The notes under the pieces are model-generated. The model ran no database searches. It was not told where the DNA came from and was given only the letters and a program-made list of their open reading frames with translations. A stretch of DNA of 64,000 bases, taken from the NCBI RefSeq assembly GCF_031127875.1, contig NZ_JARXIA010000002.1, positions 186,001 through 250,000 on the forward strand. Direction: 5' to 3'. Made by a program: the position numbers and the translations under genes. The DNA comes from Pelagicoccus sp. SDUM812005. GTDB lineage: Bacteria; Verrucomicrobiota; Verrucomicrobiia; Opitutales; Opitutaceae. This document shows, piece after piece, positions 1 to 62,346 of the stretch; the first letter of the stretch is position 1, and each line of letters begins with the position of its first letter.

Positions 1-1
1 C

Positions 2-3000
2 TCGGTCGCGGACCCACAACCTTCGAGCAAAGCGAGAACCCGCCCTAGCTCGCAGAGCGAAGGATGGCTCCACATCACCGCTGCATCCAAACACAACATC
101 CAAGACCTCAGCCTCTCCATCCCCCTCCAACGCTTCGTCTGCCTCTCCGGCGTCTCCGGCTCCGGCAAGTCCACTCTGCTCAACGCCGTCCTCTACCAAA
201 ACCTCATCGCCCAGCGCGGCCTGCTCGCCGAGGACCCGGCAGCCCTTTCCAGCCTCACCTCCGACCTGGACTTCGACGAAATCACCCTCGTCGACCAATC
301 CCCCGTCAGTCGCACCCCGCGCTCCAACCCCATCGTCTTCGTCGAGGCCTGGGACGAAATCCGTAAGCTCTACGGCAAGCTCCCAGCGTCCATAGAAAAC
401 GGATACACCGCATCCAGCTTCTCCTTCAACGCCGGCGACGGACGCTGCGAACCCTGCAAAGGCCTCGGCTACGAAAAGATCGAGATGCAGTTCCTCTCCG
501 ACGTCTACGTCCCCTGCCCCCACTGCAACGGCAAGCGCTTCAAAGACGAGCTCCTCGAAATCAAGCACGATGGCCACTCCATCTCCGACCTCCTCGAGCT
601 CACCATAGCCGAAGTCATGGAGGTCTTCAAAGAGTACCCAAAAATCCACGACAAACTCGCCGCCCTCGATCAAGTCGGCCTCGGCTACCTAAAATCCGGC
701 CAACCCCTCAACACCCTCTCCGGCGGCGAATCCCAACGCCTCAAACTCGTCAAGTATCTCCAAGGTAGGGCGGGACGGCCCGGCACGCCGCAACAACCCG
801 ATCAAGCAGGATCCCTCATCCTCCTCGACGAACCCACCACCGGCCTGCACAAGCACGACGTTCGCCGACTGCTCGAAGTGCTCCAGCGGATCGTCGACTC
901 CGGGCATAGCCTCATCGTCATCGAGCACAACATCGACGTCCTCAAGTCCGCCGACTGGATCATCGAGATGGGCCCCGAAGCCGGGGCCAAAGGCGGCCAA
1001 GTCGTCTTCCAAGGCACCCCCGAAGCCTGCTCAAAAACCACCACCGAAACCGCCCGCTACCTCGCTCCCGAGTTCGATGGTAGGGCTGCCGCTCGCGGCA
1101 CGCCGCAACAACCCGATCAACTCCTCGCCGCCGAAGCCCCCACCCCCTACAACACTCCCACCCTTAGTGACGCTTCGTGCCCTTCGTGGGCCAAAAACAA
1201 CACAACCCGATCCACCACCGCACTCACCGTCACCGGCGCCCGCGAACACAACCTGCGCAACATCTCCGTATCCATTCCCCACTACGAATTCACCGTAGTC
1301 ACCGGAGCCTCCGGATCCGGCAAGTCCACCCTCGCCTTCGACATCGTCTTCGGCGAAGGCCAACGCCGCTTCATGGAATCCATGTCGCCCTACGCCCGCC
1401 AATTCGTCGAGCAGCTCCCCCGCCCCGACCTCGACCAACTCACCGGCATCCAGCCCACCGTCGCCATCGAGCAACGCGTCACCCGCGGTTCCCGCAAGTC
1501 CACCGTCGCCACCATCACCGAAGTCGCGCAATACCTACGCCTACTCTACTCGCGCCTCGGCATCCCTCACAACCCCGACTCCGGCAACCCACTCATCGCC
1601 CAGACCGAAAGCGAACTCCAAAAGCGTCTCCAAAAAATAATTACGACGCCCGAGGCCACCAAAGCCAAGCACCTCTACCTGCTCGCCCCCCTCATCCGCA
1701 ATCGCAAAGGCCACCACCAACCCATCGCCAATTGGATCGCCGACCACGGCTACGAGATGATGCGCGTCGACGGGAAGCTCATCTTCACCGACGACTTCAA
1801 GAAGCTCGACCGCTATAAGGAGCACAACATCGAAGTCGTCATCGCCGACCTCGCGCCGATCGCCCACCTCAAATCCCAGCTCAACCATCACCTCAAAGAA
1901 GCCCTCAAACGCGGCAAAGGCACCGCCCTGGTTATCGCTCAAGGAGGAGCGGTCTCGCCGAGATCGTCGCAAAAAGCCGATATCCACTACCTCTCCACCA
2001 CCCGCATGGACCCCGAGACCGGCGAAGCCCTCCCCGAGCTCGATCCCAAGGACTTCTCCTTCAATTCCCACAAAGGCTGGTGCCCCGCCTGCCGCGGACA
2101 CGGCCGCATCTACCCTTGGATGCGCGAACGCCTGGAGGACGACGAAGAGCTCGCCAAAGCCATCGGCGCCGACGACTCCAGCGAAGACGACAGCCAAGCC
2201 ATCATCTGCCCCGAGTGCGACGGCGAACGCCTCAACCGCACCAGCCGTCACGTCTACCTGTATCTAAAATCCGGCGACACCATTTCCCTGCCCAAGCTTC
2301 TCGCCCAAGACCCCAAGCAACTCCTCGCCACCCTCAAAAAGCTCAAGCTCGACAAACGCGGCCAAATCATCGCCCGCGACATCGTCGCCCAAATCCACGA
2401 GCGTCTCCAGTTCCTGGATAAAGTAGGCCTCGAGTACCTAAGCCTCGACCGCCCCACCCAAACCCTTTCCGGAGGCGAAGCCCAACGCATCCGCCTTGCC
2501 GCCCAACTCGGCTCCAACCTCGCCGGCGTCCTCTACGTGCTCGACGAGCCCAGCATCGGCCTGCATGCCCGCGACGGCGACCGCCTCATCGAGACGCTCA
2601 AAAACCTGAAGAGCAAAGGAAACACCCTGCTCGTCGTCGAGCACGACGACACCACCATGGAGCACGCCGACCACATCATCGATCTCGGACCCGGCGCCGG
2701 CATCCACGGCGGCGAAGTCATAGCCCAAGGCACCATTGCCCAACTCAAGAAAAACAAAAGCTCCCTCACCGGCCGCTACCTAAAATCCGGCATCCCACAC
2801 CCCCTCCAAGGTCAATACCGCCCACTCCCCACAGGTCGCGCCGCCTCGCCGAGGCCGCCGCAACAACCCAATCAAAAGAAAAGCAAAACTGGGAACGCCA
2901 AGCCCCAGCTTGGCAACACCCCATTCCTCACCCTCACCGGCGTCACCTTCCGCAACCTAAAGAAACAAACCGTCCGCATCCCACGCAACCGCCTCACCAT

Positions 3001-3985
3001 GCTCTGCGGGGCCTCCGGCGCCGGCAAGTCCTCCCTCATCCGCGACCTGCTCGCCCCCGCCACCGCCTACGCCATCAAGGCGAAAAAGGACGCCATCACC
3101 GGCGCCGACTTCGCCAAGAACGGGCCCAGCATCGAAGGCAACGAAGGCCAAGTTCTCTTCGAATCCCTCGCCGGAGCCAGCGGCTTCCGCAGCGTCATCG
3201 AAGTCGACCAAAGCCCCATCGGAAAAACGCCCCGCTCCACGCCCGCCACCTACCTCGGCGTATTCGATATCATAAGACAATTCTTCGCCAGCTTGCCCGA
3301 GTCCAAGATGCGTGGATACAAGCCGGGCCGCTTCTCCTTCAACACCGCCCACGGCCGCTGCGAAACTTGTTCCGGCGCCGGACGCGTAAAGCTCGAGATG
3401 AGCTTCATGCCCGACACCTACGTAACCTGCGAAGACTGCGACGGCTCCCGCTACGGCCCCGAACTGCTCGACCTCCATTGGAAAGGCAAAAACATCGCCG
3501 ACGTGCTAGCCATGGGCTTCGAGGAAGCCGCGGAATTCTTCAGCTTCCACAGCCAGCTCGGCGAGATCATGCAACTCATGGTCGAGACCGGCCTCGGCTA
3601 CCTCACTCTCGGCCAAAGCAGCCCCACTCTCAGCGGCGGCGAAGCCCAACGCCTCAAACTCGTCACCGAGCTCGCCAAAGGCCTGCAAAGCTACACCGAA
3701 CGCAGCCGCGGCATCCAAAGAACCAATCTATACGTTCTCGAAGAACCCACCATCGGCCTCCACCTCAGCGACTGCGAAAAGCTCATCCGCCTCCTGCACA
3801 AGCTCGTGGACCAAGGCCACACCGTGGTCGTCATCGAGCACCACCTCGACCTCATCGCAGAGGCCGACTACGTCGTGGAAGTCGGCCCCGGCGGCGGCCC
3901 CAAAGGCGGCAAGATCCTCTACCAAGGCAACCTCGCCGGCCTCAAAAAGTCCAAACGCAGCATCACCTCCCCCTACCTCAAATAA
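2..3985 (+). CDS. uvrA: UvrA-type excinuclease ABC subunit A, giant multi-module form (5' end outside window)
   Basis: DNA damage-recognition ATPase of nucleotide excision repair, partner of UvrB. The frame is open from base 2, so the start lies upstream. Three ABC modules are visible. Module 1 has Walker A GVSGSGKST near 149, zinc-finger CxxC pairs near 450 and 515, signature LSGGESQR at 716 and Walker B LILLDEP near 810. Module 2 has GASGSGKST near 1307, CPAC/CPEC, LSGGEAQR near 2468 and LDEPSIGLH. Module 3 has GASGAGKSS near 3008, the DQSPIGKTPRS box, CETC/CEDC and LSGGEAQR near 3632. A normal UvrA (about 940 aa) has two modules. Modules 2 and 3 make one full UvrA, and module 1 looks like the C-terminal half of another, so a fourth module upstream is expected (a double UvrA, as known in Chlamydiae). 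Short repeats are inserted in frame in loops and linkers (listed separately). Identity is certain; whether it serves general repair or is a paralogue cannot be told. Confidence 0.93.
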   Translation, partial: SVADPQPSSKARTRPSSQSEGWLHITAASKHNIQDLSLSIPLQRFVCLSGVSGSGKSTLLNAVLYQNLIAQRGLLAEDPAALSSLTSDLDFDEITLVDQSPVSRTPRSNPIVFVEAWDEIRKLYGKLPASIENGYTASSFSFNAGDGRCEPCKGLGYEKIEMQFLSDVYVPCPHCNGKRFKDELLEIKHDGHSISDLLELTIAEVMEVFKEYPKIHDKLAALDQVGLGYLKSGQPLNTLSGGESQRLKLVKYLQGRAGRPGTPQQPDQAGSLILLDEPTTGLHKHDVRRLLEVLQRIVDSGHSLIVIEHNIDVLKSADWIIEMGPEAGAKGGQVVFQGTPEACSKTTTETARYLAPEFDGRAAARGTPQQPDQLLAAEAPTPYNTPTLSDASCPSWAKNNTTRSTTALTVTGAREHNLRNISVSIPHYEFTVVTGASGSGKSTLAFDIVFGEGQRRFMESMSPYARQFVEQLPRPDLDQLTGIQPTVAIEQRVTRGSRKSTVATITEVAQYLRLLYSRLGIPHNPDSGNPLIAQTESELQKRLQKIITTPEATKAKHLYLLAPLIRNRKGHHQPIANWIADHGYEMMRVDGKLIFTDDFKKLDRYKEHNIEVVIADLAPIAHLKSQLNHHLKEALKRGKGTALVIAQGGAVSPRSSQKADIHYLSTTRMDPETGEALPELDPKDFSFNSHKGWCPACRGHGRIYPWMRERLEDDEELAKAIGADDSSEDDSQAIICPECDGERLNRTSRHVYLYLKSGDTISLPKLLAQDPKQLLATLKKLKLDKRGQIIARDIVAQIHERLQFLDKVGLEYLSLDRPTQTLSGGEAQRIRLAAQLGSNLAGVLYVLDEPSIGLHARDGDRLIETLKNLKSKGNTLLVVEHDDTTMEHADHIIDLGPGAGIHGGEVIAQGTIAQLKKNKSSLTGRYLKSGIPHPLQGQYRPLPTGRAASPRPPQQPNQKKSKTGNAKPQLGNTPFLTLTGVTFRNLKKQTVRIPRNRLTMLCGASGAGKSSLIRDLLAPATAYAIKAKKDAITGADFAKNGPSIEGNEGQVLFESLAGASGFRSVIEVDQSPIGKTPRSTPATYLGVFDIIRQFFASLPESKMRGYKPGRFSFNTAHGRCETCSGAGRVKLEMSFMPDTYVTCEDCDGSRYGPELLDLHWKGKNIADVLAMGFEEAAEFFSFHSQLGEIMQLMVETGLGYLTLGQSSPTLSGGEAQRLKLVTELAKGLQSYTERSRGIQRTNLYVLEEPTIGLHLSDCEKLIRLLHKLVDQGHTVVVIEHHLDLIAEADYVVEVGPGGGPKGGKILYQGNLAGLKKSKRSITSPYLK
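21..62. repeat. Short palindromic element (family 2) inside uvrA
   Basis: Outer arms cttcg and cgaag, with the inner halves agcgag and ctcgca also roughly complementary, give an imperfect palindrome. A 14-base stretch, agcaaagcgagaac (26-39), recurs exactly at 4130-4143 in the spacer after uvrA. It is translated within uvrA as a Ser/Arg-rich linker just before a Walker A domain. That it is a repeat family is inferred from two copies only. Confidence 0.45.
764..805 (+). repeat. 42-bp in-frame element, copy A
   Basis: Starts ggtagggcg and ends gccgcaacaacccgatcaa. It encodes GRAGRPGTPQQPDQ between the ABC signature and Walker B of the first UvrA module, a spot where UvrA proteins usually carry a shorter loop. 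The ends match copies B and C and the first half matches intergenic copies at 62204 and 62304. Confidence 0.8.
1079..1120 (+). repeat. 42-bp in-frame element, copy B
   Basis: Same ends as copy A (ggtagggc and cgccgcaacaacccgatcaa, the last 20 bases identical to A) and the same reading frame (GRAAARGTPQQPDQ). The centre is a perfect hairpin, tgccgc-tc-gcggca, whose sequence differs from copy A. It lies in the linker between UvrA modules 1 and 2. Confidence 0.8.
1943..1984 (+). repeat. 42-bp in-frame element, degenerate copy D
   Basis: Roughly two thirds identical to copy C over 42 bases, with central hairpin tctcg-c-cgaga. Read in the same frame as the other copies (GGAVSPRSSQKAD). It lies in the insertion region of UvrA module 2. 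More diverged than A-C, so the assignment is less certain. Confidence 0.5.
2834..2875 (+). repeat. 42-bp in-frame element, copy C
   Basis: Ends gccgcaacaacccaatcaa as in A and B; central hairpin gcctc-gcc-gaggc. Same frame (GRAASPRPPQQPNQ), in the linker between UvrA modules 2 and 3. Confidence 0.75.
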
Positions 3986-3992
3986 GCAAAAG

Positions 3993-4120
3993 CGAAACTC
4001 TAACGGAACGAAACTCTAACGGAACGAAACTCTAGCGGGACGAAACTCTAGCGGGACGAAACTCTAGCGGGGCGAAAATCTAGAGCTGCGAAAATGTAGA
4101 GCTGCGAAACTCTAGCATGG
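3993..4120. repeat. 16-bp minisatellite, eight units
   Basis: Eight head-to-tail units of cgaaactctaacggaa and variants (cgaaactctagcggga, cgaaaatctagagctg) start 8 bp after the uvrA stop. Two more 16-bp units of a related form (cgaaaaccgagcggaa, cgaaaaccaagcggaa) follow at 4150-4181. The repeats are contiguous with no spacers, so this is not a CRISPR array. Confidence 0.9.
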
Positions 4121-4273
4121 CCCCCTCCTAGCAAAGCGAGAACCGAGAGCGAAAACCGAGCGGAACGAAAACCAAGCGGAACGCCCCCCCCTAGGACGGC
4201 CGAACTCAAGCACATCCATACCCACCCCCAAAACGAAAGCGCCCTCCCCCCATCCCACATCGTCCTCCCTCGC

Positions 4274-26662: not shown

Positions 26663-26705
26663 GTAGGGCGCGGACTACACGCCAATCCCGCGCCGCCCGA
26701 TCCAA
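26663..26705. repeat. Intergenic palindrome resembling the uvrA 42-bp element
   Basis: Begins gtagggcgcgg and ends cgcgccgcccgatccaa, with perfect arms ggcgcgg (26667-26673) and ccgcgcc (26688-26694). Ends resemble the in-frame uvrA copies (gtagggc ... cgccgc ... cccgatcaa), but the centre differs. It lies 6 bp after the HAD stop. Confidence 0.5.
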
Positions 26706-59851: not shown

Positions 59852-62206
59852 ATGCGAAACCTTGCCATCGCCATTACGTTCCTCGCCGTTCACGCCTCGC
59901 TCCCCTCCGCCGAGCTCTTCCATCCCAGCGCCGTCACCATCGAGGCCGGCCCCTTCCGCCAATCCATCGAGACCAACGTCGACTACGTGCTCGCCCACGA
60001 TCCCGACCGCCTGCTCGCACCCTTCCACATCGCCGCCGGCCTCGAACCCAAAGCTCCCCAATATGGAAACTGGGAATCCTCCGGTCTCGACGGCCACTCC
60101 GCCGGACACTTTCTCTCCACCTACGCCACCCTCTCCCTGCAAAGCGACAACCCACTCCTGCTCGAACGCCTCCACTACATGCTCGGCGAACTCGAGCGCT
60201 GCCAAGACGCCCACGGCACCGGCTACCTCGGCGGCGTGCCCAACTCCCAAAGCTTCATCGCCCAGCTCGAGGCCGGCCAGATCAAAGCCGACCGCTTCTC
60301 TCTCAACGGAGCCTGGGTCCCCTGGTACAACCTCCACAAAACCTACGCCGGACTCAAGGACGCCTGGCTCGTCACCGGCAGCGAACAAGCACGCGACCTC
60401 CTCGTAAAGCTCGCCGACTGGACTTACGCGGTCACCTCCAAGCTCACCGAAGCGCAGCTCCAGCAAATGCTCTTCGCCGAGCACGGCGGCATGAATGAGA
60501 TCTTCGCAGAGATGTATCAAAAACTTGGCGACAAACGCTACCTCGAGCTCGCCTACCGCTTCACCCACCGCGAACTGCTCGATCCCCTCCTCGCCGGCGA
60601 AGACAAGCTCACCGGCTTCCACGCCAACACCCAAATCCCCAAGGTCATCGGCTTCCAGCGCACCGCCCTCGCAGCCCACGACGAGGAACTGCACCAAGCC
60701 GCCAGCTTCTTCTGGGACACCGTCGTCAACCACCGCTCCGTTTCCATCGGCGGTAACTCCGTGCGGGAACACTTCCATCCCGCCGACGACTTTCGCATCA
60801 TGCTCGAATCCCGCGAAGGCCCCGAAACCTGCAACACCCACAACATGCTCCGCCTCACGACCCTGCTCTACCAGGCTGAGCCCTCCGCCTCCCTCGTAGA
60901 CTACTACGAACGCGCCCTCTACAACCACATCCTCTCCGCCCAGCACCCACAAACCGGCGGCCTCGTCTACTTCACCCCCATGCGTCCCCGTCACTACCGC
61001 GTCTACTCCGTTCCGGAAAACGCCTTCTGGTGCTGCGTGGGTTCCGGCATCGAAAACCCAGGTCGGTATTCGGAGTTCGTATACGCCAAGCAGGACGACA
61101 CCCTCTACCTCAACCTCTTCCTCGCCAGCTCGCTCGACTGGCAAGAGCAAGGCCTCCAGCTCAGCCAAACCACCACCTTTCCCCAATCCCCTTCCACCTT
61201 AATAACCATCCACGCCGCCCCCGCCCAAAAGAAGCTCGCCCTAAAAATCCGCCGCCCGGCTTGGACCACCGACGCCTTCCAAATCACCCTCAACGGAAAA
61301 GCGATCCCCGTTTCCGCAGACGATTCCGGATACGCCAGCATCGCCCGACAATGGGAAGCGGGCGACACCCTCCGTATCAACCTCCCCATGCAAATCCGCG
61401 CCGAGCAACTCCCCGACGGATCCCCCTTCTTCTCCTTTCTCTACGGCCCCATAGTGCTCGCCCAAAGAGTGTCCGAAGGCGAAACGCCCGGCCTCTTCGC
61501 CGGCGACGGCCGCATGGAACACATCGCCCCCGGCGCCTACCTCCCGCTCGACCAAGCCCCCATGCTCATCGGCGACTCCCACGAACTCGCCTCCCGAGCC
61601 AAATTCGTAACCGGTCAGCCACTACACTTCCAGCTAAGCGGCGACATCCGCCCCGCCCCCGACCGCCCCATCCTCCTGGAGCCCTTCCACCAAATCCACG
61701 AAACCCGCTACACCACCTACTGGCAAAGCGTCGACGCCTCGAGCTACGCCCGCATCCAGGACGAACTCGCCCGAAAGGAATCAATCCAGCTCGCCCTCGC
61801 TGCCCGCACCCTCGACAGCATCGCCCCCGGCGAACAACAATCCGAAGTCGAGCACGACTACCGCGGAGAAGACGCCCGCAGCGGCGCTCAACTTGGTCAA
61901 CGCTACCGCGAAACGTCCCAATGGTTTGAATACACGATGAGAGAGCCCGGCGACGCTCCCCTCGAGATCGCCCTTAAGTATCTCGGCAGCGAATGGGGCA
62001 AAGCCTGCAGCATCCAAGTAAACGGCACCAAAATCGGCGCTCTCGAGCTCTCCGCCCAGCACCCCGACAGCTTCGACGAGATCGCCTTCCCCATCCCCGC
62101 CGAACTGATAGCTCCCGGCAAGCCACTCACCGTACGCATCCAAACCATAGACCAACGCCCGAGCCCTATGGTATTCGGCATTTCCCTACGCCGTCAAAAA
62201 AGGTAG
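59852..62206 (+). CDS. GH127 (DUF1680) beta-L-arabinofuranosidase-like enzyme, exported
   Basis: A 784-aa protein with signal peptide (IAITFLAVHASLPSA). GH127 features: FHIAAGLEPKAPQYGNWESS, VPWYNLHKTYAGLKDAW, and the Glu/Cys zinc-cluster and nucleophile regions REGPETCNTHNMLRLT and FWCCVGSGIENPGRYSE. GH127 enzymes hydrolyse beta-L-arabinofuranosides with cysteine as the nucleophile. Length fits (family ~600-800 aa). Likely part of plant or algal polysaccharide use. The C-terminus has an extra beta-sandwich (~640-784). Confidence 0.92.
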   Translation: MRNLAIAITFLAVHASLPSAELFHPSAVTIEAGPFRQSIETNVDYVLAHDPDRLLAPFHIAAGLEPKAPQYGNWESSGLDGHSAGHFLSTYATLSLQSDNPLLLERLHYMLGELERCQDAHGTGYLGGVPNSQSFIAQLEAGQIKADRFSLNGAWVPWYNLHKTYAGLKDAWLVTGSEQARDLLVKLADWTYAVTSKLTEAQLQQMLFAEHGGMNEIFAEMYQKLGDKRYLELAYRFTHRELLDPLLAGEDKLTGFHANTQIPKVIGFQRTALAAHDEELHQAASFFWDTVVNHRSVSIGGNSVREHFHPADDFRIMLESREGPETCNTHNMLRLTTLLYQAEPSASLVDYYERALYNHILSAQHPQTGGLVYFTPMRPRHYRVYSVPENAFWCCVGSGIENPGRYSEFVYAKQDDTLYLNLFLASSLDWQEQGLQLSQTTTFPQSPSTLITIHAAPAQKKLALKIRRPAWTTDAFQITLNGKAIPVSADDSGYASIARQWEAGDTLRINLPMQIRAEQLPDGSPFFSFLYGPIVLAQRVSEGETPGLFAGDGRMEHIAPGAYLPLDQAPMLIGDSHELASRAKFVTGQPLHFQLSGDIRPAPDRPILLEPFHQIHETRYTTYWQSVDASSYARIQDELARKESIQLALAARTLDSIAPGEQQSEVEHDYRGEDARSGAQLGQRYRETSQWFEYTMREPGDAPLEIALKYLGSEWGKACSIQVNGTKIGALELSAQHPDSFDEIAFPIPAELIAPGKPLTVRIQTIDQRPSPMVFGISLRRQKR

Positions 62207-62246
62207 GACGTGACCGCCGGGCAAGCCGCATTGCAAGATCATCCCC
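62204..62246. repeat. Intergenic copy 1 related to the uvrA element
   Basis: ggtaggacgtgaccgccggg then caagccgcattgcaagatcatc; the first half matches uvrA copy A and the end differs. It begins at the stop codon of the GH127 gene and is part of a unit repeated 100 bp further on, which also includes cgttccacc about 15 bp downstream. Confidence 0.75.
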
Positions 62247-62303: not shown

Positions 62304-62346
62304 AAGGTAGGGCGTGACCGCCGGGCACGCCGCATTGCAAGATCAT
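62304..62346. repeat. Intergenic copy 2 related to the uvrA element
   Basis: ggtagggcgtgaccgccggg then cacgccgcattgcaagatcatc; 41 of 43 bases identical to copy 1 and about 70% to uvrA copy A. The arms gcgtg and cacgc around accgccggg form a hairpin. Confidence 0.75.

Follow-up and report, generated by a model that had tools for sequence, protein, structure and literature searches.

The uvrA gene at the start of this stretch of DNA raises the question of why several copies of one palindromic repeat are translated within a single protein, and whether these copies are mobile elements or ordinary protein linkers. The window, which is the whole stretch of 64,000 nucleotides that was analysed, is contig 42, 186001-250000, of a 6.65 Mb genome in 118 contigs (G000) and opens inside uvrA. 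The 3' two thirds of the gene are located at 2..3985 on the forward strand, as identified by the open reading frame and the NCBIfam UvrA models. The whole gene covers contig 42:184154-189985 (1943 codons from the chosen ATG) and encodes a fused tandem protein in which the NCBIfam UvrA models have four matched stretches. The nearest named UvrA relatives are Pelagicoccus sp. SDUM812002 (86%) and P. mobilis (85%) by best segment, for a query of 1942 of the 1943 residues in which the last residue was absent. Since the closest named relatives are Pelagicoccus, the genomes compared as one genus are treated as Pelagicoccus.

The repeats are GTAG-tagged REP elements in a REP/RAYT system of Pelagicoccus. 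Very probably, such elements are mobilised by RAYT and survive within genes in flexible linkers, which are refilled by the REP families of each species.

Palindromic repeats in uvrA and in the genome

The gene has five copies of one palindrome (contig 42: 185489, 186764, 187079, 187943 and 188834), referred to as sites A-E. Site A (185489) is a fifth copy upstream of the window; the first-pass annotation had described the other four and had them all sharing their ends. This holds for the copies at 764, 1079 and 2834, which align without gaps over 42 nt and are all in the uvrA frame, but the copy at 1943 is diverged and is without the shared ends. Copies B, C and E are all covariance model matches. 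Copy B (764..805, forward strand; peptide GRAGRPGTPQQPDQ) sits in an ABC module, past the helix that follows the LSGGE signature and ahead of the LLDEP strand. Copies C (1079..1120, forward strand; peptide GRAAARGTPQQPDQ) and E (2834..2875, forward strand; peptide GRAASPRPPQQPNQ) are in an inter-module linker and in the linker after the third ABC module, respectively. Copy D is a diverged core (1943..1972, forward strand; peptide QGGAVSPRSSQKAD) that reads GGAGGAGC...GTCGCAAAAAGCCGAT, and its model match (E 0.0016) is not independent because it is one of the 22 sequences in the training set of the model.

The aligned copies consist of GGTAG, an imperfect 8-bp stem with a loop of about 5 nt, and then the tail GCCGCAA. 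GTAG is present by eye in 20 of the 22 rows of alignment A2, where 75.0% of the cells are paired versus 63.1% after shuffling; in the wider alignment A4, which was fitted to the model, 85.9% are paired. That the stems change while pairing is kept is borne out by 19 cells changed on both sides, whereas shuffled alignments average 6.9 and none of 500 reaches this value. The corresponding values in the wider set are 58 and 19.5, and since that set was fitted to the structure it leans towards structure. Of the distinct rows, 13 of 17 in A2 and 22 of 32 in A4 have a mismatch at stem columns 12/20, which recalls the stem bulge described as required by the E. coli RAYT (PMC8266576). A GTAG REP is defined by an unpaired GTAG adjoining a short palindrome whose stem has 5-13 bp and whose loop has 2-20 nt, and the repeats have this form.

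The covariance model, built on 22 copies, matches at least 121 places in the genome at E<=10 and at least 83 at E<=0.01. These counts include the 22 training copies and are lower bounds, as only the best 150 of 10807 candidates were scored in this genome and 150 in each of the others. The strict pattern GGTAGGGC-N(8,24)-GCCGCAA has two sites in the window versus 0.00 expected from shuffles, and 16 sites in the genome, where the reversed pattern has 0. By itself, the 14-mer CGCCGCAACAACCC at up to three mismatches occurs no more often than chance predicts (13 sites, 18.16 expected). Of 89 examined copies, 24 have in common a longer repeat upstream, tgatcattcgcataa or a close variant, and A predominates at both positions directly before GGTAG (67% and 69% in 58 distinct copies).

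The proposed intergenic copies at 62204 and 62304 are both model matches, with their starts corrected to 62202 and 62306; a further candidate at 26663 is not found among the at least 121 matches at E<=10. The core at 62202..62231 (forward strand; C42:248202) provides with its GTAG the stop codon of the upstream ORF 59852-62206, and the core at 62306..62335 (forward strand; C42:248306) lies within the second unit of a 104-nt direct repeat. Five perfect hairpins with a stem of at least 8 occur in coding parts of the window and none of them is in uvrA, because the stems of the uvrA REPs are imperfect.

Coding context, judged by codon use on both sides, was scored for 89 of the 121 model matches. 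Consistent with the dispersed, mostly intergenic distribution of REPs, 80 of the 89 lie outside ORFs with coding scores on both sides. The nine in-gene copies are in uvrA (5), hsdM (2), hrpA (1) and a U32 gene (1), so the blocks do occur in other proteins. A single reading frame had been claimed for the repeat. This is true within uvrA, where the first frame (GRA..., or GGA... in the diverged copy) is used as it is in hsdM, but the hrpA and U32 copies are read in a second frame (VGL...). In the third frame GTAG gives a stop codon, as at window 62202. Four of the six frames are stop-free in at least 80 of the 89 copies.

Ordinary protein linkers that are alike by composition or by shared ancestry would also be variable and of low complexity, as these linkers and peptides are. 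This reading is almost certainly wrong. It is already refuted by the genome-wide copies, for which the reversed control gives 0, and it does not account for two frames in different proteins or for one identical 30-nt core at C42:185489 (uvrA), C26:145031 (hrpA) and C51:15737, a place without a coding score on both sides. None of nine non-Pelagicoccus UvrA proteins was seen to carry the same peptides at these places. The view of the first-pass annotation that the repeats are dispersed elements therefore stands, given many genomic copies, unrelated host proteins, two frames, and sites that are empty or different in several sister species.

A REPIN is formed by two REPs in inverted orientation that act as a mobile unit. 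The five uvrA copies are single sense units and do not form such pairs; inverted pairs exist beside RAYTs and elsewhere, for example at C40:77001/77046.

The same uvrA region contains other sequences of interest. A second dispersed repeat, TTAGTGACGCTTCGTGCCCTTCGTGG, is located 3' of copy C (1164..1189, forward strand) and is translated in frame as LSDASCPSW; it has 13 places in the genome at up to three mismatches, and the reversed control has 0. A perfect hairpin, GCCAAGCCCCAGCTTGGC (window 2897-2914), is translated in the same linker as copy E and may be another dispersed palindrome. The linker sequence TTCGAGCAAAGCGAGAACCCGCCCTAGCTCGCAGAGCGAAGG (window 22-66) resembles by eye sequences in the same linker of G006 uvrA and in other linkers of G002 (site B) and G004 (site D). 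These sequences may represent a third repeat class that uses uvrA linkers. A search of window 1-4200 against Rfam gave one sub-threshold snoRNA match (22.4 bits against a gathering cut-off of 49), which lies elsewhere in uvrA on the other strand and was taken as chance.

The RAYT enzyme and related repeat systems

The Y1 transposase family has five matches in the genome. The match on C25 is a RAYT by NCBIfam REP_Tyr_transpos (85.0 bits, cut-off 80), and a second candidate on C85 (69.8 bits) is below the cut-off. The C25 RAYT is flanked by REPs on both sides, as a cognate RAYT is by its own REPs, and its stop codon is the TAG of a REP. Close homologues with 63-77% identity are present in G003, G004, G005 and G007. 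Inverted pairs of the same type of REP adjoin the RAYTs of these four genomes, in G003 on one side only as the contig ends on the other.

REP abundance follows the distribution of this enzyme. At E<=0.01 there are at least 119 REPs in G003, at least 115 in G004, at least 40 in G005 and at least 61 in G007, whereas G001, G002 and G006, which have no close intact RAYT, have 0, 3 and 2. The nearest RAYT in G001 is a 43% relative with stop codons, in G002 it has at most 30% identity, and in G006 there is none. Among the eight genus genomes a close RAYT is present exactly where the REP is abundant (P 0.018 on the assumption of independent genomes, which does not hold for relatives). A second REP family, AGCGACCTNGNGTCGCGAT, occurs 50 times in G007 and not at all in the present genome or in the reversed control, and two of its copies flank another RAYT of G007 (C3:32583-33026).

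Contig 41 of the present genome contains a REP array (70897-71489; L024 4898-5490) directly behind a remnant of a RAYT 3' end (32 residues, 72% identity, one internal stop). Array and remnant together are a decayed REP-RAYT unit.

The organisation is like that of the REP/RAYT (TnpA-REP) systems of E. coli, Stenotrophomonas and Marinomonas, for which a 5' GTAG, a hairpin and an HUH/Y1 enzyme encoded beside the REPs are described (PMC8266576). Published work on those enzymes is the reason for proposing that the Pelagicoccus RAYT would mobilise its REPs. The enzyme, of the HUH-type Y1 class, would recognise the GTAG-hairpin in single-stranded form, cut beside the hairpin and paste a copy elsewhere. 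The cut sites given in PMC8266576 are CT or CA; the two bases before GGTAG in Pelagicoccus are mostly A.

The first-pass annotation had considered such repeats undescribed in Verrucomicrobia, and this is not the case, since uvrA copies in Opitutus terrae were published in 2013. Di Nocera, De Gregorio and Rocco described GTAG REPs with RAYTs in which the TAG of the REP serves as the stop of a flanking ORF (PMC3733652). They also reported in-frame GTAG REPs within genes, most of them in O. terrae and including both uvrA genes and RNA helicases, and suggested linkers as REP-tolerant sites (PMC3733652). Genes of one functional category were reported to carry REPs at different sites, except recB of two Xanthomonas (PMC3733652). 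The authors doubted that insertion in repair genes is fortuitous, and a function was presented only as speculation (PMC3733652).

In-gene GTAG REPs are thus already known as a kind, and Pelagicoccus is a further member. Its REPs share with those described for O. terrae and other bacteria the tag and hairpin, the RAYT-flanked copies, a TAG that ends a flanking ORF, the in-frame copies in uvrA and a helicase gene, and a verrucomicrobial host. They differ from the case described in PMC3733652 by the genus, by five single sense copies in uvrA, and by other REPs at the same sites in sister species. What is new is that a second genus is involved, that one gene has five copies, that the REP is abundant in those sister genomes that have a close RAYT, that sister species have different REPs at shared linkers, and that hairpins are enriched in UvrA linkers. 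Literature searches directed at repetitive extragenic palindromes in Opitutus-group bacteria, at palindromes in Pelagicoccus and at REPIN/RAYT within genes returned no paper; those on uvrA or Verrucomicrobia with such repeats returned only PMC3733652.

A resemblance to the Rickettsia palindromic elements (RPE) was also noted earlier. It is valid for behaviour, since both are palindromes that enter coding genes, repair genes among them, without shifting the frame (PMC3733652), but not for family. The intragenic repeats of R. conorii are equated in PMC3733652 with RPE-4 and RPE-6 and treated as CGTC repeats, and no transposase is reported in its account of the CGTC repeats. Unlike that superfamily, which has CGTC at the foot of the palindrome and no transposase association, the Pelagicoccus repeats have a GTAG tag and are associated with RAYT. 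It is therefore very improbable that they are members of the RPE, with the two sets compared by description.

REP sites in sister species

The uvrA sites were read in the present genome, in seven relatives of the genus and in others, and were searched with the model at E<=0.05. The comparison shows that a given site may lack a REP, share the REP or hold another one. The present uvrA has five matches, G003 has four (A, B, C and E) and G007 has two (B and C); at this threshold there is none in G002, G005, G001, G004 or G015.

At site A, G007 has by eye another GTAG palindrome, and G002 has a degraded relative of it. Two copies of the AGCGACCTNGNGTCGCGAT family are located in uvrA linkers of G007, one of them at site A, where the present genome has the first REP family. 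Copy B is also found in G007 and G003. Copy C is present in G007, and G003 has at the same site another stem between the same arms. Site D has a diverged copy in G007, seen by eye and below the model threshold, and by eye none in G003, G002, G005, G001 or G015. Site E has a model match in G003 and REP-like sequence by eye, below the threshold, in G007 and G002; none was seen by eye in G005, G001, G004 or G015. The uvrA of G010 has a REP-like dimer at site E (by eye).

The other host genes show a similar pattern. The hrpA linker has this REP type in the present genome, G003 and G004 by the model, has other palindromes by eye in G007 and G005, and has little in G001 and G015. In hsdM, site 1 is the same in the present genome and G005 and is unfilled in G007, while site 2 is common to the present genome and G007, has another palindrome in G005, and has a third REP, GRARPPGEPRQQEL, in G015, which belongs to another genus. 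The U32 gene has the REP in the present genome and G005 and other sequence in G006 and G002. No REP was seen in this gene in G007, G003, G001 or G015, and G004 gave no match for the gene.

Identity between the present genome and G003 is 40/41 at site A and 42/42 at site B, compared with 0.840 for uvrA overall. This suggests late gain or homogenisation, and the values do not separate these from simple insertion. One alternative is that the uvrA copies were spread or homogenised within the gene by conversion among REPs, in which the arms and tail stay and the stems are swapped. The tail GCCGCAACAACCCGATCA is concentrated in uvrA, with three exact sites and one single-mismatch site there and three single-mismatch sites elsewhere in the genome, one of them in hsdM. 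Site C also fits conversion, as it keeps both arms with another stem in G003 (31/41 identity to the present copy, versus 39/41 for G007). The copies in hrpA, the U32 gene and hsdM site 1, however, do not have this tail and have others, and conversion within a gene cannot produce a foreign REP family or a different stem at the same sites in sister species. Conversion as the general origin of the uvrA copies is therefore possible and rather unlikely; as the means by which stems are exchanged it is a partial rival. The shared tail was also considered as a mark of in-gene copies and is not exclusive to them, since it also occurs, with one change, at C42:119687, where there is no coding score.

Linkers and the survival of REPs in genes

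The position of the copies in the protein was examined with an AlphaFold model of residues 1-1000, based on a 33-sequence alignment (mean pLDDT 83.0), which contains three of the five sites. Site B is wholly coil, with pLDDT below 50 at residues 872-880, and sites A and C are mostly coil with helix ends. Site C, located at the end of the construct, is also below 50, as are all modelled residues from 978 onward. The idea that REP sites are always in length-variable segments does not hold throughout; it is true for B and C, moderately so for A and E, and not for D (58.7th percentile).

The wider survey included 77 tandem UvrA genes, which are the present one and 76 of 80 loci fetched out of 185; L196, L202, L216 and L231 were left out because their ORFs do not reach 1500 codons. 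Linkers contain 32 perfect hairpins with a stem of at least 8 versus 3.8 expected from synonymous-codon shuffles, and 80 versus 59.2 in the core. The enrichment is uneven, as the 51 linker hairpins with a stem of at least 7 come from 18 of the 77 loci. GTAG is found beside 12 of these 51 linker hairpins and 4 of 262 core hairpins (Fisher P 1e-7). The recurrence of linker words in the flanks of the same locus (69 of 77 loci) is absent at k=12 (57/7147 versus 2402/341805, 1.1-fold) and, in small numbers, is 4.1-fold at k=14 (20/6725 versus 245/338964) and 11.4-fold at k=16 (6/6303 versus 28/336156). This recurrence is weak as supporting evidence.

These observations are consistent with a process in which most pasted copies would survive between genes. 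Survival within a gene is possible because four of the six frames are stop-free in most copies. A 42-nt unit of suitable net length may then persist where a flexible linker gains a short peptide, hydrophilic in the uvrA copies. The linkers of UvrA, HrpA, HsdM, the U32 protein and an ABC-F protein would be recurrent landing sites, each species would fill them with the REP families current in its own genome, and the stems would later be exchanged or replaced.

The nine in-gene copies are all in sense, with P 0.0007 if the copies are independent and 0.04 if the four genes are the units. In uvrA copies A and B the first-frame sense peptides are clearly hydrophilic, unlike those of the open antisense frames, and this difference may account for the bias. 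One antisense frame is also hydrophilic in RAYT-flanking and intergenic examples. Coding context in sister species was examined for 40 of 119 matches in G003, a set from which the four uvrA copies were left out on purpose and which does not include the hrpA copies, and for 20 of 115 matches in G004. A rule that antisense copies never occur in genes was rejected, since one of the 20 examined G004 copies, a member of an inverted pair, lies antisense in what may be a coding region.

Selection for the insertions could also account for the sense bias, either through altered repair proteins (the mutator idea in PMC3733652) or through an mRNA hairpin or REP-binding protein that regulates uvrA. The gene has five of the nine in-gene copies (P 1e-13 under uniform insertion, with 5.7 Mb of coding DNA assumed), and both uvrA genes of O. 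terrae are reported to carry REPs as well (PMC3733652). Uniform insertion is, however, an unfair null if only linkers survive. In addition, the hosts include hsdM, hrpA, the U32 gene and an ABC-F gene in G003, sites A-C are mostly coil in the AlphaFold model, and some sister species have no REP there or have another. Selection is therefore considered improbable. The linker position and the absence in sister species suggest that the peptides are tolerated, and most likely the REP peptide has no function beyond this.

It is an even question whether survival in linkers extends to a more general rule, in which a small number of linkers in conserved multidomain proteins (tandem UvrA, HrpA, HsdM, U32 and ABC-F) are standing landing pads where the REP family of the lineage is installed in frame and in sense and is exchanged as REP populations turn over. 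If this is true, REP/RAYT systems would keep supplying Verrucomicrobia with new protein linkers, and the contents of the linkers would preserve a record of past REP families. The data favour tolerant linkers that are repeatedly refilled. The eight genomes contain at least two REP families and RAYTs of more than one type, and their linkers are filled, empty or differently filled; this makes the question of function testable, and UvrA, HrpA and HsdM offer natural sites for in-frame insertion.

Several minor observations concern these genes. The G003 locus C137:20132 (L281) has a REP of the same kind, with peptide GRAASPRPPQQ, in an ABC-F/Uup-like protein behind the second ABC domain. The hrpA of G003 (L234:767, 1577 and 2246, minus strand) has three REPs, all in sense and in the second frame. 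The hrpA of the present genome (L147) contains an in-frame TALRSSSSEGG tandem from residue 1016 onward, which is found only there among the aligned orthologues, where G006 has no sequence at this place. Directly 3' of uvrA, at window 3993-4116, is a 16-nt tandem repeat of about seven units, CGAAACTCTAGCGGGA and variants.
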